DNA of 64,000 nucleotides. It comes from Verrucomicrobiaceae bacterium (GTDB lineage: Bacteria > Verrucomicrobiota > Verrucomicrobiia > Verrucomicrobiales > Akkermansiaceae). Shown here piece after piece: positions 24,911 to 55,802 of the stretch. A program made the translations under genes and the position numbers. The notes beneath the pieces are model-generated. The model made no database searches, was not told the DNA's origin, and was given only the letters and a program-made list of their open reading frames with translations. Location of the stretch: contig JAIXWR010000012.1 in assembly GCA_027491155.1 (NCBI GenBank), forward strand, positions 1 through 64,000, written 5' to 3'. Each line of letters opens with the position of its first letter. Positions within the stretch are counted from its first letter, which is position 1.

Positions 24911-27900
24911 TCAAGGCGTCACGCTGACGCTGCCGAACTGCGAGGTATTGAGCGTGCCGGTCGTGCCGCTGGCCACCACCAGGCCGATGTAGCAGTTCGC
25001 CGGGAAGCTGGCGGTCAAGCTGCCGACCTGGGTCCACGCCGTGCCGTCGGCACTCTTGAAGGCGGTGATCACGTTCCCGACGCGGGTCAGCCTCACCCAG
25101 GTGTTGGGCACGGTGCCGGTGCTGCTGTTGGTCGTGGAAGTGGTGCCGTTGGTGCTCGTGCGGCGCACCCAGCGGTAGGCATTGGTGCCGGTCAGGCCCA
25201 TGAAGACGTGTCGCGAGTTGCTCGCCAGCGTGTCACGGATCATCACGCCGACGCGCGACGAAGTGCCGGTGTTCTGGAGGCTGTTGATCCGGGCGATGAT
25301 CTCGCCGTCGCCACTGAGCGTCTGGTGGACGAAGTGGAAGGTGTCGTTCCGCCCGCTCAGAACTCCCGCTCCGGAAACCGTGAACACGCCCGAGGCATGG
25401 GTGGCCGAACCCGCCGCGATGCCGGTGCCGATGTCGCCGGAGACCCATGGCAAGGGCAACGAGGGACCGCTGACCTCGATGGTCAGCGCGGCTTCGTCGA
25501 AGGCCCCGGTGCCGTCGGTGACCCGCACGACGAAGGCATTCGAGCCGGCCGTTCCAAGTCCCGGGGTGCCGCCGAGGCTGCCGTTCGCCGCAACCGTGAG
25601 CCAGGACGGCCCGCTGATCTTGGAGAAGGTCAGGCTGTCGCCGGCGTCGGCATCGGCCGCGGTGCCGGCGAGACCGGTGCCGGTGTAAACCACCCCTTCG
25701 CTGCCGCTTTCCCGCACGATGGGATCGACCGTGAAGACCGGGGCGTCGTTGACGTTGGCGACCGCGATGTTCAGCACCGCCTCGTCGAAAGCCCCCGCCC
25801 CGTCGGTGACGCGGACGGTGAAGCTGTTAGGACCGACATCGGAGTTCGACGGCAGGCCGGACAGCGAGCCGTTCGAACCGACGACGAGCCAGGCCGGTCC
25901 ACCGACCTTCGTGAAGTTCAGGCTGTCGCCGGCATCGATGTCGCCGGCGGTCAGGCTGCCGGCATAAGCGGTGTCTTCCGTGGCGGCCGCGCCGGCGATC
26001 GGGTCGGCGGCGAAGGCGGGAGCGTCGTTGACGTTGATCACGGTGACGTTCAAGACCGCTTCATCGGTCAGGCCGCCGCCGTCGGTGACCCGGACGGTGA
26101 AGCTGTTAGGCCCGACGTTGCCGTTGCCCGGGGTCCCGGAAAGCGCGCCGTTGGAAGCGACGTTGAGCCACGCGGGACCGTTGACCTTCGAGTAGCTGAG
26201 CGTGTCGCCGGCATCCACGTCCGAAGCCGTGCCGGCAAGGGTGCCGCTGTAGGCGCTGTCCTCGGTCGCGTTGCCGCCATTCATCGGATCGGCGGCGAAG
26301 GCGGGGGCATCGTTGACGTTGATCACGGTGACGTTGAAGGCCGCCTCATCGGTCAGCCCGCCGCCGTCGGTGACGCGGACGACGAAGCTGTTCGACCCGA
26401 CGTTGCCGTTGCCCGGCGTGCCGGAGAGCGCGCCGTTGGCGGCGACATTGAGCCAGGCGGGACCGCTGACCTTCGAGTAGCTCAGCGTGTCGCCGGCATC
26501 CACGTCCGAAGCCGTGCCGGCCAGGGTGCCGCTGTAGGCGCTGTCCTCGGTCGCATTTCCTCCGGACATCGGATCGGCGGCGAAGACCGGGGCGTCGTTG
26601 GCGTTCGTCACGGTGATCGAAAGCGCGGCGTCGTCGCTCAGGCCGGCGGCGTCGGTGACGCGGACGGTGAAGCTGTTCGATCCGACGTCGGAGTTCGAGG
26701 GCGTGCCCGAAAGCGTTCCATCCGTCGCGACCGCCAACCAGGAAGGCCCGCTGACTTTCGCGAAGGTCCGGGTGTCGCCGAAGTCGGGATCCGTGGCATC
26801 GGCCGCGAGGCTGCCGGCATAGGCGGCGTCCTCGGTGGCGGCCGCCTTGACGATGGGATCCGCGGTGAAGGCGGGCGCGCGGTTCGGCACGAGGGCGCCG
26901 TGCAGGCCGTCGATTTCACCGGAAGTCAAAGCGCGCTCGTAGATGCGGACATCGTCGATTCCGCCGTCGAAGCGCTTGTTGAGGTCGCGGTGGTCGTAGC
27001 CGATGGACACGGCGCGCGATAGGAGCGACTGGACGGCTCCGCTGCCGGACGCGGCTTCGACGCCGTCGATGTAAATCCTGCCGGTCGTGCCTTGGCGCAG
27101 CGCGGTGATGTGGCGCCACTGGCCGTCGTTCACCGCGGCGGTGGTGGTCAGGTCGAACTGGAAGGCGCTGGTTCCGTAAACAAAGAAGTTCACCGTGCCG
27201 TCCGCGTTCACGTTGAGCATGTATTCCCCCTGATAGCCCGTCGCACCGGGCTCACGCTGCTGGATCACGGTGCCGGTGGGCGAGCCGGGATCGACCTTGA
27301 CCCAGGCGCTCAGCGAGAAGTCGCCTGTGCCGAGCAAGGCGGCGGAACTGCCGACCAGCACGCCGTCGTCGGTGCCGTCGAAATCGAGCGCGCCACCGCT
27401 AATGCCGCTGTTCCATGCCGCACCGCTCACCGCACCGTCCTGGGCGCGGCCAGTGGTGTCGTCGGCATTGCTGCCGCTGCCGTCGTCGAGTTTCCACCAG
27501 GCGCGGAGACCGGCGTAGATCGCCGGGGGTTGCGAGGCGTTGGATTCCGGATCGGTGCCGAGCGCGAGTTCGAGCCCGGTGGTGAAGCCGTCGCCGTCCG
27601 GATCCGCGCCCGGATCGGTGTTTTCCACGGTGATGGAAACACCCGCGGAGCTCACCCCGCCGCCGCTGTAGATGGCCCGGGCGGTGAGGACGTGATTCCC
27701 TGCCACGGCACCGGTCCAAGTCACGCCGTAGGGCGCGCTCGGGTCGGAGCCGATCAAGGTGGAGCCGCGGTAGAACTCGACGGCGGTCACAGGCAGCGAG
27801 CCGCCGACGACATTGGCAGCGAGCACGACGTCATCGCCGGCATCGAAGACCGAGCCCGCGCCCGGCGAGGTGAGCGCGAGCACCGGAGGCTGCGGAGCAG

Positions 27901-46522: not shown

Positions 46523-46863
46523 GACGGGTCTCGGGCGGACGCCACCTCGGGCTCCGGTCGGGCGGGTTCCACTTCCTCGATGTCGGCCGGGGTCACCTCG
46601 ATCATCTGGGTGCCGTTCTCGCGGAGCCGTTCCCGCATGTCGAAGCGGTCCAGCAACTCGTCGGTGTTGACCTCGATCATGCGGATCTTGACCCGGGTCT
46701 GGTCGATCCGCTGCTCGGCCTGGTCGATCAACCGGGCGGTGCGCACCTGCGAGTTCTTGTAGACGGCGTGCATGACGCCGCCGGTGACCACCACCAGCGC
46801 GGCGAGGATCAGCGAGATGAAGACGGACGGGTGGGTCTTCGGTTCGGAGCGGAGTCGGTTCAT
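46519..46863 (-). CDS. ftsL: FtsL-like septal membrane protein
   Basis: 114 residues starting MNRLRSEPKTHPSVFISLIL. One transmembrane helix (~15-36), then a coiled coil (ARLIDQAEQRIDQTRVKIRM) and a Pro/Glu-rich tail. Sequence similarity to FtsL is always weak; the call rests on size, topology, coiled coil and location between rsmH and ftsI, which is where ftsL lies in most dcw clusters. It would bind FtsB/FtsQ-type partners and activate FtsWI. It overlaps both neighbours by 4 bases. Confidence 0.75.
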   Translation of the reverse strand: MNRLRSEPKTHPSVFISLILAALVVVTGGVMHAVYKNSQVRTARLIDQAEQRIDQTRVKIRMIEVNTDELLDRFDMRERLRENGTQMIEVTPADIEEVEPARPEPEVASARDPS

Positions 46864-47834
46864 CGGGGTGAAAGGGCGGGGTCCAGAAGCTCGGCGACCC
46901 GCAGTTTTGCACTGCGGGCCCGCGGGTTGACTCGGATCTCTTCGTCGCCGGCGGCGATCGCTTTTCGAACGGGAAGCCGGAAGCACCAGTCGGGGTTCGG
47001 CCGCGGTTCCGGCCAGCCGGGTTCGTCGAGGAAAGGCTTGGCCCGGTGCTGCATGAAGCGCTTCACCATCCGGTCCTCGAGGCTGTGGAAGGTGATCACC
47101 AGAAGGCGTCCGCCGGGTTTCAGGACATCGACCGATGCCTCCAGCGCACGCTCCAGCGAGCCGAGCTCGTCGTTCACCACCATGCGGATCGCCTGGAAGG
47201 CCTTGGTCGCGGGGTGGATGCGGCCGCTGCGGCCGATGGTTTTCTCAATGCAATCGGCGAGGTCGGTGGTGGTGTCGAAGGCGCGGGTCGCGCGGCGCTT
47301 GACGATGGCCGCGGCGATCCGGCGGGCGCGGGGTTCCTCGCCGAGTTCGCGGAAAATGCGGACGAGCTCCTCTTCCGGCCAGGTGTTGACCACTTCGGCC
47401 GCATCGAAGGGACAGGCCGGGCCCATCCGCATGTCGAGGGGGCCGGCGCCGCGGAACGAGAATCCCCGTTCCGCGGCGTCGAGTTGCCGGGACGAGACCC
47501 CGAGGTCCAAAAGCAGGCCATCGGCCCGCATTTCCCCCCGGACCTCGGGGATGTCCCGGAGATCGGCAAAATTTCCCTGCCAGGTGCGGAAGCGGTCGCC
47601 AAAGGCGGCCAGCCGCTTCGATGCGAAGGCCAGCGCCTCCGGATCGCGGTCGACGCCGAGCACCCGGGCACCGGCCTTCAGGAAGGCCTCGCTGTGACCG
47701 CCGCCGCCGAGCGTGCCGTCGATCAGCTCCTTGCCCTCGCCCGCCGCCATCCACTCGCTCACCTCGGAAGGGAGCACGGAGAGGTGGTAGCCGGAGGACT
47801 CGCCGGAGCCGGTGTTCGATTGAAAGCAATCCAA
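46860..47834 (-). CDS. rsmH: 16S rRNA (cytosine(1402)-N(4))-methyltransferase
   Basis: The conserved part begins YHLSVLPSEVSEWMAAGEGK, then the SAM site IDGTLGGGGHSEAFLKAG and LGVDRDPEALAFASKR, LLLDLGVSSRQLDAAERGFS and FQAIRMVVNDELGSLERAL. About 324 residues if it starts at the TTG at 47834, which is the first usable codon before the conserved region. The same frame stays open through the upstream tandem repeat to an ATG at 48464, 42 bases after mraZ; that start would add about 210 repetitive residues. It N4-methylates C1402 of 16S rRNA. The stop overlaps ftsL (ATGA). Confidence 0.9.
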   Translation of the reverse strand: MDCFQSNTGSGESSGYHLSVLPSEVSEWMAAGEGKELIDGTLGGGGHSEAFLKAGARVLGVDRDPEALAFASKRLAAFGDRFRTWQGNFADLRDIPEVRGEMRADGLLLDLGVSSRQLDAAERGFSFRGAGPLDMRMGPACPFDAAEVVNTWPEEELVRIFRELGEEPRARRIAAAIVKRRATRAFDTTTDLADCIEKTIGRSGRIHPATKAFQAIRMVVNDELGSLERALEASVDVLKPGGRLLVITFHSLEDRMVKRFMQHRAKPFLDEPGWPEPRPNPDWCFRLPVRKAIAAGDEEIRVNPRARSAKLRVAELLDPALSPR

Positions 47835-48376
47835 CGGCCGCCGCCCTGCCAACCAGCCATGGAATGCAGGTCGGACGGCCGTTTGGGAATGAACGGAAGG
47901 GAGCGCTGTCCCGAGTGCTCCGGTCCGTTCGCATGGAGAATGTCCCGGGGCCCGTGCAGGCAACCAGCCAGAAGCTGCACGGACCACCGAGTTGAGAAGC
48001 GAAAGGGGTACTGTCCCGAGTGACCCCATCCGCCCAGCCAGGAAAACCAGCGGCCGCCGCCCTGCCAACCAGCCATGGAATGCAGGTCGGACGGCCGTTT
48101 GGGAATGAACGGAAGGGAGCGCTGTCCCGAGTGCTCCGGTCCGTTCGCATGGAAAATGTCCCGGGGCCCGTGCAGGCAACCAGCCAGAAGCTGCACGGAC
48201 CACCGAGTTGAAAAGCGAAAGGGATACTGTCCCGAGTGACCCCTTCCGCCCAGCCAGGAAAATCTCCGGCCGCCGTCCTGCCAACCAGCCATGGAATGCA
48301 GGACGGACAGCCGTCTTGAAGTGAACGGAGCGGCACGCTGTCCCGAGTGCGCCGGTCCGTTCGGATTGGAAAATGA
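47835..48376. repeat. Nested 216-bp tandem repeat between mraZ and rsmH
   Basis: About 2.5 copies of an exact 216-bp period (CCATGGAATGCAG recurs at 47857, 48073 and 48289). Each period contains two diverged sub-units; the core CTGTCCCGAGTG occurs at 47906, 48011, 48122, 48227 and 48338, spaced 105, 111, 105, 111. Copies 1 and 2 differ at only a few bases; copy 3 is more diverged. All spacings are multiples of three, and the three minus-strand frames stay open. Confidence 0.93.
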
Positions 48377-48505
48377 TGCCCAACTCCCGCACCGAACCGT
48401 GCGCCGCGATGGGTGTCGCGGTGCTGGCCTGTGCCGGTGAGGGAGTTGGTTGGGCGAACAGCATGTTGTCGCTTCTTATCAGGTGTGGGCGGGTGAAATC
48501 TTTGC

Positions 48506-48958
48506 TTAGAGGACGCCGAGGTCGCCGTCGTCCATGCCGAGCTCGATCTGCTTGATGCGCTCGAAGGTGTCCGGAGTGCAGATCATGTAGAAGGGTCCGC
48601 GGCCGGCGAGGATGACCTGGCCTTCCGATTGGATGCCGACTTGCTCGCTCCAGTCCTTCGGCACCGTCAGCTTCCCCTGGTTGCTGACGAAGGCCTTCTT
48701 CGACATCATCCGCAGGTGACCGACGATCTGCTGCTTCTTGGCGGGAGTCAGGTCGCTGTTGGCCACCTGCTCGAACTTCAGGTCGAACTCCTCCTCGCTG
48801 TAGACCTTGATGACCGGCAGCTCGTGCTCCTTGGAAAGCTGCAGCCGGATCGCCGTCTCCTCCGTCGCCGGGCGCCACTCGACCGGGATGGAAACCCGGA
48901 ATTTCGGGTCCATCTTGTAGTCGAAATGACTCTCGTGAACTTTGGAGGAGGAAGGCAT
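48506..48958 (-). CDS. mraZ: Transcriptional regulator MraZ
   Basis: 150 residues starting MPSSSKVHESHFDYKMDPKF, with two SpoVT/AbrB-like halves: DPKFRVSIPVEWRP and NQGKLTVPKDWSEQVGIQSE, each carrying the strand pattern of the MraZ swapped-hairpin fold. MraZ forms a ring that binds direct repeats in its own promoter and controls the dcw operon. It is the first gene of the cluster; a promoter-like sequence lies 32 bases upstream of its ATG. Between it and rsmH lies a 670-base gap with tandem repeats, unusual for this gene pair. Confidence 0.92.
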   Translation of the reverse strand: MPSSSKVHESHFDYKMDPKFRVSIPVEWRPATEETAIRLQLSKEHELPVIKVYSEEEFDLKFEQVANSDLTPAKKQQIVGHLRMMSKKAFVSNQGKLTVPKDWSEQVGIQSEGQVILAGRGPFYMICTPDTFERIKQIELGMDDGDLGVL

Positions 48959-49260
48959 CGGATGCGGTCAAGCCGCTGGAGTGCCTCGAACTACACCAAA
49001 GTACACCGGAATCGTCAATTTAAAATCAGGCGCTGCTTAATAAAATTTTAAATTACTGATTTCCAGTGATTTACATTTCATCTAGGAAGCAATTCCCACG
49101 AGTTTGATTTCAAATTTTAAACAATTTCAGCCGAAGCATCGGGGCAAAATCGGCCGAAATTGGGTCGATCTGGCCCCTCGGAGGCAAAATGGTAGCATCG
49201 AGTGCACTTGAAGTCCACCAAGTGTTCTCCGGTGTACTAAACGGGGCCGATCGAGCCCGT
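48959..49260. other. A/T-rich intergenic region upstream of mraZ
   Basis: About 300 bases with no credible gene. The stretch 49015-49135 is markedly A/T-rich against a GC-rich background and is followed on the minus strand by the dcw promoter. The 10-mer TCCGGTGTAC occurs on the minus strand at 49010-49001 and on the plus strand at 49228-49237, forming an inverted pair around the A/T-rich block. Confidence 0.7.
48990..49018 (-). promoter_or_regulatory. Probable mraZ/dcw promoter with overlapping direct repeats
   Basis: On the minus strand TTGACG and TGTAGT are separated by 17 bases, placing a start of transcription about 25 bases before the mraZ ATG. The bases just upstream are A/T-rich (ATTTTAAA), like an UP element. 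GGTGTA occurs twice, 10 bases apart, within the spacer and -10 region; MraZ operators are known to be short direct repeats with 10-base phasing, so this may be the autoregulatory site. Confidence 0.5.
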
Positions 49261-49261
49261 T
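49239..49261 (-). terminator. Possible terminator of the secreted hypothetical gene
   Basis: On the minus strand AACGGGC and GCCCCGTTT can pair with one bulge around a short loop directly at the stop codon of the gene ending at 49261, followed by only three T. The structure is weak. Confidence 0.35.
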
Positions 49262-50067
49262 CAGCGGGCCTTGATCACGAAGCGGCCCTTGCCCTCGGGA
49301 TCTTTTGCGGCGTCGGACCGCCAGCCCAGGGTGAAGCCCTCCATCAAGGCGCCGTTCCCGCTGTTCCAAAACTCGAAGGCGGCGTCCTTGCCGGCGTCGA
49401 GATCGAAGCGGAGCCCCCTGTGACCCGCGATGTCGATCCGCGCTTGGGCGATGCCCGGGCCGTTGTGCTCCGCGGACTCGGCGTCAAGCGGGGTCATCAG
49501 GTCGAGCTTCAGCTTCTTGCCGTCGGTGCGGAGGAGATCGATGCGGTCCTTCTTGGCCTTTTCGGCCTTTTTGCCGGCGTCCTTATCGTAATAATACGCG
49601 TCCGGCACCTGAAAGCGGATCACGAAGCGCGGGTTGGCCAAGGTCCCCTTCTCCAGCAAGCGGCCACCCACGCTGATCTGGTCCCCGTCGAACTCGAGCT
49701 TCACCTCGAAGCGCGCCCCGCCCGTGACGGTGCCGCGGTAAACCACGGATTCCGGATCGACGGCTGCCGGAGTGACCGCCTCCCAGCCGTCGTCCTGCGC
49801 CGCCCTGGCAACAATCTGGCCGCTTGGCAGGACATCCTCGACCACCGGCCGGATCCGGATCGAAACCCGGCTGTTCAAGGGGGAACCCTTCTCGCTCATC
49901 GGGGAAAGCATGCACTCGCCCGAGCTGCCGACCGTGAAATGGAAGTTCCGCCGCTCGTAACCGGTGTAATACCCAATCCAGGGGTTTTCCTTGAGCTGGG
50001 GAAGTTCACCGGCCGGGAGAGGAAGGACCGGCAGCACGCCGAGGACGAGCAGGAGGGGTTTGGTCAT
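49261..50067 (-). CDS. Secreted hypothetical protein, 268 aa
   Basis: The ATG gives MTKPLLLVLGVLPVLPLPAG, a signal peptide; the frame upstream belongs to antisense of the 100-aa gene. The mature part is beta-rich, with NPWIGYYTGYERRNFHFTVG near the start, RVSIRIRPVVEDVLPSGQIV, a Lys-rich loop (DKDAGKKAEKAKKDRIDLL) and a final domain RIDIAGHRGLRFDLDAGKDA. No known catalytic motif. I do not recognise the family; periplasmic or outer surface location is inferred. Confidence 0.65.
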   Translation of the reverse strand: MTKPLLLVLGVLPVLPLPAGELPQLKENPWIGYYTGYERRNFHFTVGSSGECMLSPMSEKGSPLNSRVSIRIRPVVEDVLPSGQIVARAAQDDGWEAVTPAAVDPESVVYRGTVTGGARFEVKLEFDGDQISVGGRLLEKGTLANPRFVIRFQVPDAYYYDKDAGKKAEKAKKDRIDLLRTDGKKLKLDLMTPLDAESAEHNGPGIAQARIDIAGHRGLRFDLDAGKDAAFEFWNSGNGALMEGFTLGWRSDAAKDPEGKGRFVIKAR

Positions 50068-50424: not shown

Positions 50425-50555
50425 GACGCCGGGTCACCCGCAGGCCGGCCCGGGGCCGATGACAAGGCCCGGCAATCGCCGATTCGGAATGCCGAGACGT
50501 CACCAAAATGCGCTGATTCACGCATTGACCGAAGAATCCCCTCCCAGGGATGTCT

Positions 50556-50583
50556 TTGATTGTCATTTATCGAGCCATAAAAC
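50556..50583 (+). promoter_or_regulatory. Possible promoter of the first beta-helix giant gene
   Basis: TTGATT and TAAAAC with a 16-base spacer lie in a locally A/T-rich stretch about 60 bases upstream of the ATG at 50646. The match to the sigma-70 consensus is moderate; no other candidate in this 220-base gap looks better. Confidence 0.35.
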
Positions 50584-50645
50584 CATTTCATTTGCATGAA
50601 AAGAGAGAGAACGGCACGTTTCCTGCGACCTTGACCTCGTTCCTC

Positions 50646-53600
50646 ATGAAAAGACCTAATTCCAATCTTCGAAAGACACTGCTCAATACTGCTGTCTTCA
50701 CCGCCATCGCCCAAGGACCCGCGCTCCAAGCTGCGAACCTTTACTGGGACGTCAATGGTGCCACTCCGGGCGCCGGGACCGCGGGAGGGACTTGGGACAG
50801 CGGAACCAACTGGAGCGCCGACTCCACGGGCTCCTCGGCCACCACGGGTTGGACCAATGGCGAGTCGGCGGTCTTCTCGGCCAGCACCGATGCCACCGCT
50901 GCCAAAACCGTGACCATCGCGGGCACGGTGGCCACGCCGTCGATCCTGCTCGAGGAAAACGGCCTCGTAACCCTGTCCGGCGGCAGCATCGACATCACCG
51001 GCGGGTCGGTTTTCAACACCGCTGTCCTCGGCGCGGCGGGCGGACGCTCCCTGACCTGGAACCCTGTCATCACCGGCACCGGCAACCTCACGCTCGCCGC
51101 CCACGGCGACCTTTCCAACACCGGCGGCGGCTCCGACACCATCTTCAACCTGACGGGAGCGAACACCTTCACCGGAGACGTCACCATCACCTCGGGCATC
51201 GTCTCAGCCGCCGCCAACTTCGGCGATCCCGCCAACAAGGTGATCCTCAACGGCGGTGGCATCGTCGACCCCAACCTCAACCTCGCCTTCGGCCGCAACC
51301 TGGAGATCGGCGCTTCCGGCGGCGTGATCCGCAATTACGGCAGCGTCAACAATTTCCGCCTGCAGGGCACCCTCTCCGGGACCGGCGAACTCCGCCGGAC
51401 CGACGGCGGCAACACCGTGCTCACCGGCGACGGCAGCGGCTTCACCGGCACCTTCAACGTGCAGCGCGGCACGATGCAAATCGGCAACGGCACGACCACC
51501 GCGAACCTCGTTCCCAACGCCACCGGGATCACCGTGGGCGACGCCACCGGCGGTGGCACCTTCCGCTACCAGCTCGACACCTCGATCACCCTGGCCACCC
51601 CGGTGACTTTCGCCAACGCAGGCGGGGTGCTCCAGTGGCAGGGAACCGGCGCCGACGATGTGATGACCGTCAACTCGGTCCTCGGCACCGACAACTCGCT
51701 CGGCAACCTGAGGGCTGGCTCGGGCGCGATCACCCTTGCTTCCGGCGCCAACGTCAACGTCGGCAACCTGACACTGACCTCCACCCCGGCCAACTCCGCC
51801 ACCGCCTTGATCGGCACCTTGAACATTGAGGCCGGCGCGGAGATCGCCACCCGCTACTTCAACATCGGCGACGGCAACCAAACCTCCGGCACGGTGAACC
51901 AGACCGGAGGCACCGCCACCGTCGCCGCCGGCGGCAACGGCTTCCGCCTCGGCCACTGGAACAACGGTCTCACCCCGGGCTCCATCTACAACCTGTCCGG
52001 CGGCACCCTTGACGGCACCCCCGCTTCGGGCAACGCCGCCGCCGATGCCCAGCTCATTGCCGTCGGCTGGGACGGCCAGGGCCTCATGACCGTGGGCGGA
52101 GGCGCCGGAACGGCCACCCTGAAGGCGGTCGGCGTGATGCTCGACCGGAACCGGGCCGGCACCGCGAACTTCGCGGCGAGCCTCACCGTTTCGCCGAACG
52201 GCGTGGTCGAGATCGGCAGCCGCGGCACCATCGGAAGCCTCGGAAACGATGCCATCATTCTCAACGGCGGCACCCTCAAGTCCACCGCCAACGCGAACTG
52301 GCTCGCCACCATGAATGCCGGCGTCGCGACCACGCTCGACATCAACGGCTTCAATCCCAACCTCGGCGGCATCATCACCGGGACCGCGGCGATCAACGTG
52401 ACCGATACCTTCGGCGGCGGGACTCTGGGACTCGGCGGGGGCACCGCGACCACCACCATCTCGGCCGCGCTCTCCGGCTCCGTGCCGATTTTCAAGACCG
52501 GCACCGGCACCGTCACCCTTACCGGCACCAGCCCCTACACCGGCAATCTGACCGTCAGCGCCGGAATTCTCGCCATCACCGGATCCTTCGGCGGCAATGT
52601 CGTGTCGGAAGACGCCGGCACCCTCTCCGGGGAAGGCGGCATCGGCGGCAACCTGACCCTCGGCAGCGCCACCGGCACCCGCCTGCTGGTCGATCCCTCG
52701 ACCGCCGGCAGCCTCACCGTCACCGGCTCCGTCACCCTTGCCGGCACCAGCATTGTCAACCTGACCACGCCGCTCACGACCGTGGATCCGGTGATCGAGG
52801 TGCTCAAGTATGGCACGCTCAGCGGAAGCCCCGCTTCAGGCCTCACGATGGCCGGCCAGGCTTCCTACCGCAGCGCCACCTTCACTGACGACGCCTTCAA
52901 CGCCCGCGTTCTCCTCAGCATCGACACCAAGTCCCTCGTCTGGGTCGGGACCGGCGGCCTTTGGGACGTCAGCTCCTCCTCGAACTGGAGCGACGGCGCG
53001 GCGTCGAGCTTCTTCTGGGGCGACCAGGTGACCTTCGACGACACCTCCGCCGTCACCAACGTCGGCCTCTTCGGCGAACTTCAGCCCGGCCAGATCATCG
53101 TTGATTCGGACACCAACAACTACGTCTTCAACAACGCCGGCCAGGCCCAGGTGGAAACCGCGCTCGCCCTCGGCAACGCGGCCGCCGATGGACAGGTCGT
53201 GGTCACCATCACCAGCGCCGATCTCCCCGGCTCGCCTCTCGCCATACCGGTTGCCATCCTCACCGGCGACACCGCCATCACCTGGGCAGGCAAGGTGCGC
53301 ACCGCTCTCGGTGCCAATCTGGCCGTGAGCGCGCTGTTCACCGTCGGCGGCACCAACGACAGCGTCGTGCTGACCCGCAGGACCGACGCCAACGGCCGCT
53401 TCGTCGCCAACGACCCGACCCTCAACATCGCCTTCTCCAATGGCAGCCCGGATCCCGGCATCACGGCGAATCCGACCAGTGCGGACACCACCGCGGGTTA
53501 TCCGACCTCCTTCATCGGCGGCAGTGGCAATCTGGTGAAGAGAGGCACCTCGATCCTCACGATCAACACGCCGAACACCTACACCGGCGGCACCGTCATC

Positions 53601-55802
53601 AGCGAAGGCACCATCAACATCCGCCGCGCCGACGCGCTCGGCACCGGGACCACGACCCTGGGCGACGCCTCCACCGGCGCCGCGAACGTATCGCTCTACC
53701 TCGACACCAACCGCGTCAACTTCGGCCGCCCGGTCGTGGTGTCCAACAACGGCACCGGAACCGCCACCCTCGGCAGCCGCGCGACGGTCACCGGCACCGG
53801 CGACAACAACCAGTTCACCAACATCGTGCTCCAGCGCGACGTGGTGTTCGATTCCAACGCCAACGACCGCACCGACTTTGAAAACATCACCGGGACCGGC
53901 AACATCACCGTGACGGGAACCAATCGCTCGGTCTTCCCCACCACCCCGGCCACTTGGACCGGCAATCTGACCGTCTCGACCACCGGTGCCAACGGCTCGC
54001 TCCAGATCGGTGTCGCCAGCACCGCCGGCGACCGCATCCCGGACGCCAGCAATGTGACCGTGACTTCGGGCGGCCTGCTCCGCCTTTCGACCACGGCGGA
54101 AACCATCGCCGGCCTCTTTGGCGCGGGAACCGTGAACACCAACGCCCCGAGCGGCGGCACGGCCACCCTCACGGTCGGCTTCGGCGGAGCGAACGGCAAC
54201 TTCTCGGGTCTCCTGACCGGAAACGTTGCCAGCAACATCCTCGCCCTGACCAAAACCGGTGCCGGCACCCAGATCATCAGCGGCAACAGCACTTACAGCG
54301 GAGCCACCGCGATCACCGGCGGCACCCTGCAGGTCGGTAGTGGCGGTGCATCCGGCGACCTCGGCACCGGTGCGGTCACGCTGTCGGCCGGGACCACCCT
54401 TGCCTACAACCGGACCGGCGCGGTGATCCAGGAAGGCGCCCTCAACAGCGCCGCGGTCGGAAACGGCATCCTCACGGTCGGCGGCGACGCCACCACCGCG
54501 GTCACCCTCAACGCCGGCGGGAGCTTCTCCGGCGTGGTGAACATCAACCAGGGAAGCCTCGTCTTCGGTGCCACCAACCCGACCGGCACCGCGGCCAATT
54601 CCCCGGTGATGAACATCGCCGCGGGTGCCACCCTGACCAATACCGGCACCAGCACCCACGCCCACATCGGCACCCTCAACCTGACCGGCGGCGCCACCGT
54701 GACCACGGGCACCGGCACCGGCAGCTACAACGGGGAAAACTACCAGCTCAACGGCAACGTGACGGTTTCCGGCGGCACCACCGCCGCCGTGATCACCCGC
54801 GAGGCTTCCCGGACCAACGCCAACAGCGGCCTGGCCCTCGGCATCCTCAACGGTGCCAAGGTCTTCACCGTCGCCGACGTGACCGGCAGCCCCGCCGCGG
54901 ACCTGGTGGTTTCCACCGAACTGGAAAACCCGGACAACGGAACCGGCGCCCTCACCAAGGCCGGCCCGGGCACGATGCAGCTCGCGGGCGGGATCACCCA
55001 CTCCTTCACCGGTGCCACCACGGTGTCCGAAGGCGTGCTGGTCGCTTCCGGCTCGGTCGCCGGCACCCTGGCGGTCGCAAGTAGCGCCACCCTTGCACCC
55101 GGAACCGCCGCCGGCTCCTTCGCCGCCGGTGCCTCGACCATCGACGGCACCTACGCCTGCGAAATCGATGGCGCCACTGCCGACAGCTTGGCCGTCACCG
55201 GCAACCTCACCCTTGGCGTGGCCAGCACCCTGGCCGTCACGACCCTGGGTGGCGGTGCCACCTTGCCGACCTACATCATCGCCACCTACACCGGCACCCG
55301 CAGCGGCTCCTTCGCGACCGTCACCGGGCTCCCCTCCGGCTACTACGTGAACTATGACGATACCAACAAGCGGATCGAGATCACCAACGTGGTCGCCGAT
55401 CCCTACGCCTCGTGGGAAACCGCCAACGGCATCACCGGTGCCGGCTCGAACGTCGACTCCGACGGCGACGGCATCCCGAACGGCATCGAGTTCGTGATCG
55501 GCGGCGATCCCTCGGGCCCGGCATCGGCTTCCAACAGCCTGCTGCCGACCGCCACCACCGACGCCACCTACCTGAACTTCGTGTTCCGCCGCACCGACGA
55601 ATCCGCCGCCTACGATCCCTTCGTGGAATACAGCTCGTCGCTCGGCACCTGGACCGAGGCCCAGGCCGGGGTCGGCGGGGTGATCGTCAACGAGGACGAC
55701 GACTTCTTCGGAACCGACATCGACCGGGTCACCGTGCGCATCCCGCTCGCGCTGGCCACCGGCTCCAGGCTGTTCGCCCGCCTTGGTGTCGATGTTCCCT
55801 GA
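50646..55802 (+). CDS. Giant secreted beta-helix protein with autotransporter-type strand repeats
   Basis: 1718 residues. The ATG gives MKRPNSNLRKTLLNTAVFTA, a signal peptide. The mature protein begins ANLYWDVNGATPGAGTAGGT, followed by long right-handed beta-helix repeats of the autotransporter-associated strand type, e.g. LTKTGAGTQIISGNSTYSGA and GTGTVTLTGTSPYTGNLTVS. Near the C-terminus is a calcium-binding-like loop DSDGDGIPNGIEFVIGGDP and a beta-rich end finishing LFARLGVDVP. There is no PEP-CTERM tail and no clear barrel. Probably a surface or extracellular adhesin or matrix protein. A strong terminator follows. It is a paralogue of the next gene. Confidence 0.85.
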   Translation: MKRPNSNLRKTLLNTAVFTAIAQGPALQAANLYWDVNGATPGAGTAGGTWDSGTNWSADSTGSSATTGWTNGESAVFSASTDATAAKTVTIAGTVATPSILLEENGLVTLSGGSIDITGGSVFNTAVLGAAGGRSLTWNPVITGTGNLTLAAHGDLSNTGGGSDTIFNLTGANTFTGDVTITSGIVSAAANFGDPANKVILNGGGIVDPNLNLAFGRNLEIGASGGVIRNYGSVNNFRLQGTLSGTGELRRTDGGNTVLTGDGSGFTGTFNVQRGTMQIGNGTTTANLVPNATGITVGDATGGGTFRYQLDTSITLATPVTFANAGGVLQWQGTGADDVMTVNSVLGTDNSLGNLRAGSGAITLASGANVNVGNLTLTSTPANSATALIGTLNIEAGAEIATRYFNIGDGNQTSGTVNQTGGTATVAAGGNGFRLGHWNNGLTPGSIYNLSGGTLDGTPASGNAAADAQLIAVGWDGQGLMTVGGGAGTATLKAVGVMLDRNRAGTANFAASLTVSPNGVVEIGSRGTIGSLGNDAIILNGGTLKSTANANWLATMNAGVATTLDINGFNPNLGGIITGTAAINVTDTFGGGTLGLGGGTATTTISAALSGSVPIFKTGTGTVTLTGTSPYTGNLTVSAGILAITGSFGGNVVSEDAGTLSGEGGIGGNLTLGSATGTRLLVDPSTAGSLTVTGSVTLAGTSIVNLTTPLTTVDPVIEVLKYGTLSGSPASGLTMAGQASYRSATFTDDAFNARVLLSIDTKSLVWVGTGGLWDVSSSSNWSDGAASSFFWGDQVTFDDTSAVTNVGLFGELQPGQIIVDSDTNNYVFNNAGQAQVETALALGNAAADGQVVVTITSADLPGSPLAIPVAILTGDTAITWAGKVRTALGANLAVSALFTVGGTNDSVVLTRRTDANGRFVANDPTLNIAFSNGSPDPGITANPTSADTTAGYPTSFIGGSGNLVKRGTSILTINTPNTYTGGTVISEGTINIRRADALGTGTTTLGDASTGAANVSLYLDTNRVNFGRPVVVSNNGTGTATLGSRATVTGTGDNNQFTNIVLQRDVVFDSNANDRTDFENITGTGNITVTGTNRSVFPTTPATWTGNLTVSTTGANGSLQIGVASTAGDRIPDASNVTVTSGGLLRLSTTAETIAGLFGAGTVNTNAPSGGTATLTVGFGGANGNFSGLLTGNVASNILALTKTGAGTQIISGNSTYSGATAITGGTLQVGSGGASGDLGTGAVTLSAGTTLAYNRTGAVIQEGALNSAAVGNGILTVGGDATTAVTLNAGGSFSGVVNINQGSLVFGATNPTGTAANSPVMNIAAGATLTNTGTSTHAHIGTLNLTGGATVTTGTGTGSYNGENYQLNGNVTVSGGTTAAVITREASRTNANSGLALGILNGAKVFTVADVTGSPAADLVVSTELENPDNGTGALTKAGPGTMQLAGGITHSFTGATTVSEGVLVASGSVAGTLAVASSATLAPGTAAGSFAAGASTIDGTYACEIDGATADSLAVTGNLTLGVASTLAVTTLGGGATLPTYIIATYTGTRSGSFATVTGLPSGYYVNYDDTNKRIEITNVVADPYASWETANGITGAGSNVDSDGDGIPNGIEFVIGGDPSGPASASNSLLPTATTDATYLNFVFRRTDESAAYDPFVEYSSSLGTWTEAQAGVGGVIVNEDDDFFGTDIDRVTVRIPLALATGSRLFARLGVDVP

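Follow-up and report, generated by a model that had tools for sequence, protein, structure and literature searches.

The window (the whole stretch of DNA analysed, 64,000 nt from one contig of a Verrucomicrobiaceae bacterium) contains on its minus strand an mraZ gene (48958–48506), followed by a tandem repeat array, rsmH, and ftsL-like and ftsI-like frames, a gene order which agrees with the position between mraZ and rsmH, inside the operon, proposed in the initial annotation. The mraZ, ftsL and ftsI genes were named by eye and rsmH by domain profile matches, with residues 226–525 of its frame passing the TIGR00006 equivalog cut-off (306.8 bits vs 154.3). The end of mraZ also lies upstream of the array in related loci whose contig includes the upstream side. 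In the features listed below, H1 and H2 are the two predicted hairpins of a repeat unit, and R1 and R2 are covariance models built from the alignments of A-type and B-type units, respectively.

48506–48958, minus strand: mraZ open reading frame (ORF; named by eye), upstream of the array
46860–48464, minus strand: extended rsmH ORF, 534 aa in translation, start ATG-CTG-TTC (MLFA), stop codon at 46860–46862
48380–48449, minus strand: leader hairpin preceding the first unit, an inverted repeat with 15-nt arms that are 93% complementary
48263–48363, minus strand: unit 1, A type (H1+H2), R1 113.0 bits, covariation in the A-type alignment
48158–48252, minus strand: unit 2, B type, R2 103.3 bits and R1 41.2 bits, covariation in the B-type alignment
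48047–48147, minus strand: unit 3, A type, R1 116.5 bits
47942–48036, minus strand: unit 4, B type, R2 102.7 bits and R1 42.4 bits
47831–47931, minus strand: unit 5, A type, R1 117.3 bits
46890–47789, minus strand: RsmH methyltransferase domain, ORF residues 226–525, TIGR00006 E 1.9e-91 and PF01795 E 7e-98

A long hairpin at the leader position was also present in the folds of loci L001 (the locus described here), L003, L005, L011, L013 and L016. Just upstream of mraZ, two GGTGTA elements form a direct repeat on the minus strand (48990–49009), resembling operator repeats of the MraZ type.

Tandem Repeats Finder reported 2.5 copies of a 216-bp period at 47831–48375 (93% matches) with a 105-bp row inside it (47961–48291), confirming the presence of a nested tandem repeat, in which five sub-units are arranged in a 216-bp higher-order period. 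The two 216-nt copies (47828–48043 and 48044–48259) are 97% identical, as close as had been claimed. A 12-nt core, CTGTCCCGAGTG, has five matches in the window, all of them exact, whereas 100 shuffles with one mismatch allowed averaged 0.60 matches and never exceeded 3, and the core-to-core distances (111, 105, 111 and 105) are all multiples of three, again as first noted. A search of the own genome for this core, as the initial annotation suggested, gave exactly five matches in 5.7 Mb (46 contigs), all located in the array, and a dispersed genome repeat was rejected on this basis.

The array had been viewed as filling the gap between mraZ and rsmH, but the RsmH frame is open and in-frame throughout, leaving no spacer. 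Of 34 loci from the own genus (g1), a second genus (g13) and named relatives, 32 keep this frame open across the array; L014 was dropped from the set because its rsmH is off the contig, as were the truncated or duplicate loci L017, L018, L057–L062, L068 and L103 (L063–L065 probably represent one species). The two breaks are in L112, at a run of N marking an assembly gap, and in L066, a metagenome-assembled genome of 2.3× coverage, and ribosome bypassing or frameshifting was rejected on these counts. Within L001–L018, 15 loci could be read from the MLF start to the domain, the remaining three being cut by contig ends, and these 15 had no stop codon in frame 0, whereas the two alternative frames contained 36 and 27. 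Fourteen of them begin with ATG-CTG-TTC and L013 with ATG-TTG-TTC; outside g1 the MLF start is not universal, with other beginnings in L104, L107, L067 and L069. In five of the 15 loci the nearest in-frame ATG is at least 200 codons upstream of the domain, and this ATG is the MLFA start itself in four, and lies 24 codons after MLFA in L003.

Parsimony on a 14-locus tree without G029 gave 1121 changes, with 27.7 stop-creating changes expected in frame 0, a figure that ignores structural constraint, and none seen. Of 106 spacings between H2 copies (60–260 nt), 105 are divisible by three, the exception being in L066, as are 89 of 96 between H1 copies. H1 is read in another frame in six units with the nonamer intact, and in L005 and L008 a −1 shift before H1 is compensated by a +1 shift after it. 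The pattern of substitutions and spacings shows that a stop-free frame into RsmH is kept by selection, separately from the putative RNA structure, and we infer that the extension is translated. It spans 109–317 residues across loci. At the locus itself, residues 1–223 had a pLDDT below 50 in an AlphaFold2 model based on an alignment of only 14 rows, with the domain mostly confident, and the 223-residue extension is accordingly predicted to be disordered; a Pfam search of it returned no domain above cut-off.

The repeat had been described as a nested tandem repeat of DNA, but the repeated unit corresponds to a predicted RNA structure with conserved, covarying hairpins. Each unit reads, in order, U-run, H1 with loop UCGGGACAG, linker, H2 with loop GGCUGGUU, and a second U-run, and both loops are near-invariant. 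From 18 loci, 78 units were extracted, and 72 of these (42 A-type and 30 B-type) were aligned, the remaining six being the five A-type units from G029 and the fifth unit of L001. In the A-type alignment 92.7% of cells are paired and 20 of 28 pairs show double changes, with 120 double-change cells compared with 32.7 in shuffled alignments (reached in 0/500) and at most 46 when the partner was slid. The B-type alignment has 92.1% of cells paired, double changes in 15 of 29 pairs, and 87 double-change cells vs 27.9 shuffled (0/500) and at most 25 when slid, with the number of double-changed pairs reached by 4/500 shuffles and the number of pair types by 7/500. In both alignments the structures were derived from the very sequences tested, giving them an advantage over the slid controls, and related rows are counted several times. 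There were 141 G-U cells vs 25 A-C cells, an excess which indicates that the mRNA-sense strand folds. Over the first 634 nt of the ORF the folding z-score is −10.3, and over an equal stretch of the domain it is −1.7 (20 shuffles each). Together the alignments show the repeat to be a tandem array of five copies of a predicted two-hairpin RNA element of about 105 nt.

The flanking U-runs were likewise conserved, with TTT present 20–48 nt past the start of the H2 loop in 131 of 137 units (fraction of control windows, 0.17), and TTTC or TTCC 12–36 nt before the CGGGACA of H1 in 135 of 139 (control fraction, 0.21). By eye, the U-run lies about 4–8 nt from the stem in most host units, weaker than in a textbook terminator, and a terminator consensus scan of both strands gave three terminator-like sites, compared with 2.1 in shuffles. 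Plain terminators would also leave the near-invariant loops unexplained. Kissing of the H1 and H2 loops was considered and rejected, since just 3–4 weak pairs were found by eye and the columns are invariant and so cannot inform on covariation. The upstream UUCC may, by eye, pair with the GGGA of the H1 loop.

Among eight close genomes, pairwise differences at the first, second and third codon positions were 0.177/0.181/0.237 in the extension, and 0.108/0.073/0.344 in the RsmH part. Third positions in the extension still change somewhat more, which leaves room for some coding constraint. In 15 loci, 59 of 70 [LIFV]GT motifs are encoded as CTC-GGG-ACA, whereas ACA is used for only five of the 180 Thr codons in the RsmH part. 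The near-flat codon-position bias, the fixed rare ACA, and the loops which stay intact where the frame slips show selection acting mainly on the putative RNA structure and its loops, and weakly on the amino acids.

Searching 57 genomes at the DNA level identified the array in 17 of the 18 genomes of g1 and in one further genome, G029, of g13 in the same family; in the eighteenth g1 genome (G010, 72% complete) only a distant RsmH-like gene was found. With the covariance models, run on genomes with stricter filters, R1 matched 24 of 239 genomes of the order (2/48 genera) and R2 matched 10 of 387 genomes of the phylum (2/197 genera), in one place per genome except in G014, where the array is split over contig ends. 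A pattern search of the 387 phylum genomes yielded eight genomes, all with arrays already known, and in other genera R1 detected no unit at any of 15 rsmH loci (best E 0.11), where the RsmH frames without internal stop measure 296–422 aa between stop codons. The array or its end is also present in the named relatives Luteolibacter marinus, Haloferula rosea and Haloferula sp. BvORR071, one of the two array-bearing genera holding Luteolibacter and Haloferula. Among the sampled genomes, the array is thus confined to two genera of one family, at rsmH. In the own genome there is a second RsmH-like gene, 38% identical to RsmH (G000:C28:114385–115260), and comparable second copies occur in many of the 57 relatives searched.

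The comparison with related genomes proposed in the initial annotation did reveal copy-number change, from 1 to 8 units between loci. The suggested origin by unequal exchange held in part: near-identical copies exist here (units 2 and 4 of L001, 96.6%) and in L011 (units 2 and 4, 94.9%), but across nine own-genus loci the units are scarcely more alike within than between genomes. Similarity of A units was 0.815 within a genome (n=27) vs 0.811 for the same position between genomes (n=108), and that of B units 0.839 (n=9) vs 0.812 (n=72), which suggests that homogenisation of units is sporadic.

Single units were also found in phages. A pattern scan of IMG/VR gave 66 stretches, mostly chance as judged by folding; R1, run on all 66, retained five below E 1e-4, and R2, run on 16 of these and 10 further viral stretches, retained the same five. 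Three of the five are one virus, leaving three distinct tailed-phage contigs with a single H1+H2 unit each (L191, L165 and L200). These units start 5–13 nt past a stop codon and are not within an ORF: that of L191 lies behind a small tail-fibre-like gene with TTTTT directly after H2, that of L165 separates a gene of an unknown/protease-like family from the major head protein gene, and that of L200 lies behind the portal gene. The L191 terminase has relatives in 10 of 97 genomes, of which the closest two (54 and 47% identical) belong to the own genus and the third (45%) comes from elsewhere in the order. The prophage-like region of G011 that is home to the closest relative carries an H2-like hairpin directly behind a stop codon (L324 2748–2837, G011:C6:103247–103336), with a T-rich stretch following it and without a recognisable H1. 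Twelve non-array matches to the H2 loop were folded, and only this prophage-like one lay in an H2 hairpin, which speaks against the H2 loop being a genus-wide terminator loop; two more non-array matches, in G007, had no assigned locus. Among new viral stretches, R1 (10 stretches) gave only an H2-only match in L221 (E 0.072) and R2 (52 stretches) gave none; a weak R1 match in L190 lay away from its pattern (E 0.083), and three short matches at E 3 in INPHARED phage records were taken as chance. The phage copies lie outside ORFs, which suggests the RNA instead of the peptide as the functional component, and they lie at gene ends, which argues for an effect on the elongation or the ends of transcripts.

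Comparison with described RNAs did not yield an identity. With Rfam 15, nothing at 47000–49300 of the window exceeded threshold (best sub-threshold E 0.26), and only sub-threshold matches were obtained in four homologous loci (MIR169_6, E 0.36 in L013) and five phage loci (Ref64, E 0.24 in L165/L199/L214). The mraW RNA motif (RF01746) is a single 5′ UTR element. Like the array, it is a candidate structured RNA tied by name to mraW, which is rsmH, and it is listed for Actinomycetales (PMC2864571). A cmscan of 47000–49300 at E≤5 did not detect RF01746. The pan and STAXI motifs are tandem RNA motifs located upstream of or near genes (PMC2864571); the array resembles them in being tandem, but it lies in an ORF and has no Rfam match above threshold. 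In the open-access literature on this gene, these genera and hairpin arrays we found nothing relevant.

In leader-peptide attenuators, such as those of trp and his, the movement of the ribosome over a translated leader decides which hairpin is formed. Here the leader would instead be fused in frame to the enzyme and consist of similar tandem units, and no run of control codons was seen in the extension. By description, the nearest mechanistic analogue may be the put RNA of phage HK022, a phage cis RNA of about 70 nt with two stem-loops (PMC9378689). As transcripts, the predicted units of L191, L165 and L200 would share with put the two adjacent stem-loops. The mark of the put-type class is that RNA polymerase ignores downstream terminators through direct RNA binding. 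In contrast to put, which lies near early promoters, the host element is tandem and inside an open frame.

Most likely the array is translated and, as RNA, regulates rsmH and the genes downstream of it (ftsL–ftsI) in cis, and an effect on rsmH–ftsI expression, raised in the initial annotation, stands as a possibility. The tandem host form in an open frame suggests a cis array whose folding would be ribosome-dependent. Each unit would act on transcription elongation, with H2 and its U-run resembling an attenuator or pause hairpin, and the near-invariant loops would be where RNA polymerase or a factor docks. As ribosomes translate the extension they would unfold the units, allowing well-translated transcripts to read through, and poorly translated transcripts would stop or slow before the division genes, with additive copies. 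The final unit has the TTT in 30 of 34 loci, which we count against this mechanism, and since the phage copies are outside ORFs, ribosome gating cannot apply to them. A translated cis-regulatory array with a translation-gated effect on transcription elongation is nevertheless the best explanation of the whole, if a tentative one. A more general version may be proposed, with some doubt: a two-hairpin module shared by this lineage and phages would act directly on transcription elongation, in the terminator/antiterminator class, and in the host would have been multiplied in tandem within the translated start of rsmH, where its copies would add up and, gated by ribosomes, regulate cell-wall and division genes.

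The same location in two related genera and the single phage copies make it probable that this is a new kind of gene switch, and not a simple DNA repeat. Searches for conserved RNA structures in bacteria mostly target intergenic regions, and here 1 to 8 copies are found inside an ORF, where selection on RNA appears to have removed nearly all of the usual codon signature without closing the frame. If the translated array is real, this coding sequence was picked for its RNA shape, and its protein product need hardly be more than stop-free. Such an array would represent a new RNA family and a regulatory module that could be traced through the phages and hosts sharing it, explain an RsmH extension otherwise annotated as protein, and provide a testable link between translation and expression of a conserved cell-division operon.

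Nearly as likely as the ribosome-gated cis array, though still doubtful in its own right, is that the units are tandem sites for a host RNA-binding protein or a small-RNA partner which controls translation or mRNA stability of rsmH, with phages borrowing single sites and the in-frame position being incidental. Two near-invariant loops on covarying stems, the variable copy number and the single copies behind phage genes would all fit such sites. CsrA is the obvious binder of GGA loops. A CsrA/RsmA site array was rejected, however, as PF02599 was found in 0 of 57 genomes, including the own genome, while the same search was positive in 3 of 14 controls. Mimicry of or complementarity to rRNA was likewise unsupported in the 16S and the contig-end-cut part of the 23S rRNA; two GCTGGTT matches in the partial 23S, and the presence of GGCTGGAT at the 3′ end of the 16S, concern short words and were taken as chance.

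It is improbable that the extension works as a protein, that is, as a basic, repeat-containing RsmH N-terminus in which the hairpins are a by-product of repeated GC-rich codons. The conserved MLF start, the G-W, R and G-T residues that do not vary across 14 aligned proteins, a net charge of +8 to +19 in 15 loci and the slightly higher third-position change do agree with this, but the nearly flat codon-position rates, the covariation of the stems, the predicted disorder, the loops kept in a second frame and the non-coding phage copies do not. Equally improbable is that RsmH starts past the array, which would then be a non-coding leader in a frame open by chance. In 10 of 15 loci an in-frame ATG, GTG or TTG does occur after the last H2 loop and ahead of the domain, and the phage units are non-coding, but L015 and L016 have no such codon whatsoever, and in L004, L006 and L007 the nearest candidate is the TTG of the loop itself; the absence of stops where about 28 were expected and the compensated −1/+1 shifts around H1 also argue against a downstream start. 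Slightly less probable still is autoregulation, in which ribosomes without RsmH methylation would cross the hairpins differently and the array would report RsmH activity; complete arrays are found at rsmH only, in an open frame, but the phage units have no visible link to RsmH. A neutral or selfish tandem repeat, or the assembly artefact considered in the initial annotation, is very improbable despite the 97% identity of copies 1 and 2, given the recurrence of the array at this locus in 24 of 239 genomes searched in the order and in two genera, the covariation, and the five H2 copies at the same place in each of the single-contig relatives G002 and G009, which make an artefact unlikely.

Elsewhere in the window, a 285-bp tandem repeat of 3.3 copies is located at 25795–26715, and 13.7 copies of the heptamer CCACCAT occupy positions 1–97, which is also the contig start. 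On the plus strand, an ORF of 1750 aa at 50550–55802 is rich in Gly and Thr and, by eye, resembles a large secreted beta-repeat protein.
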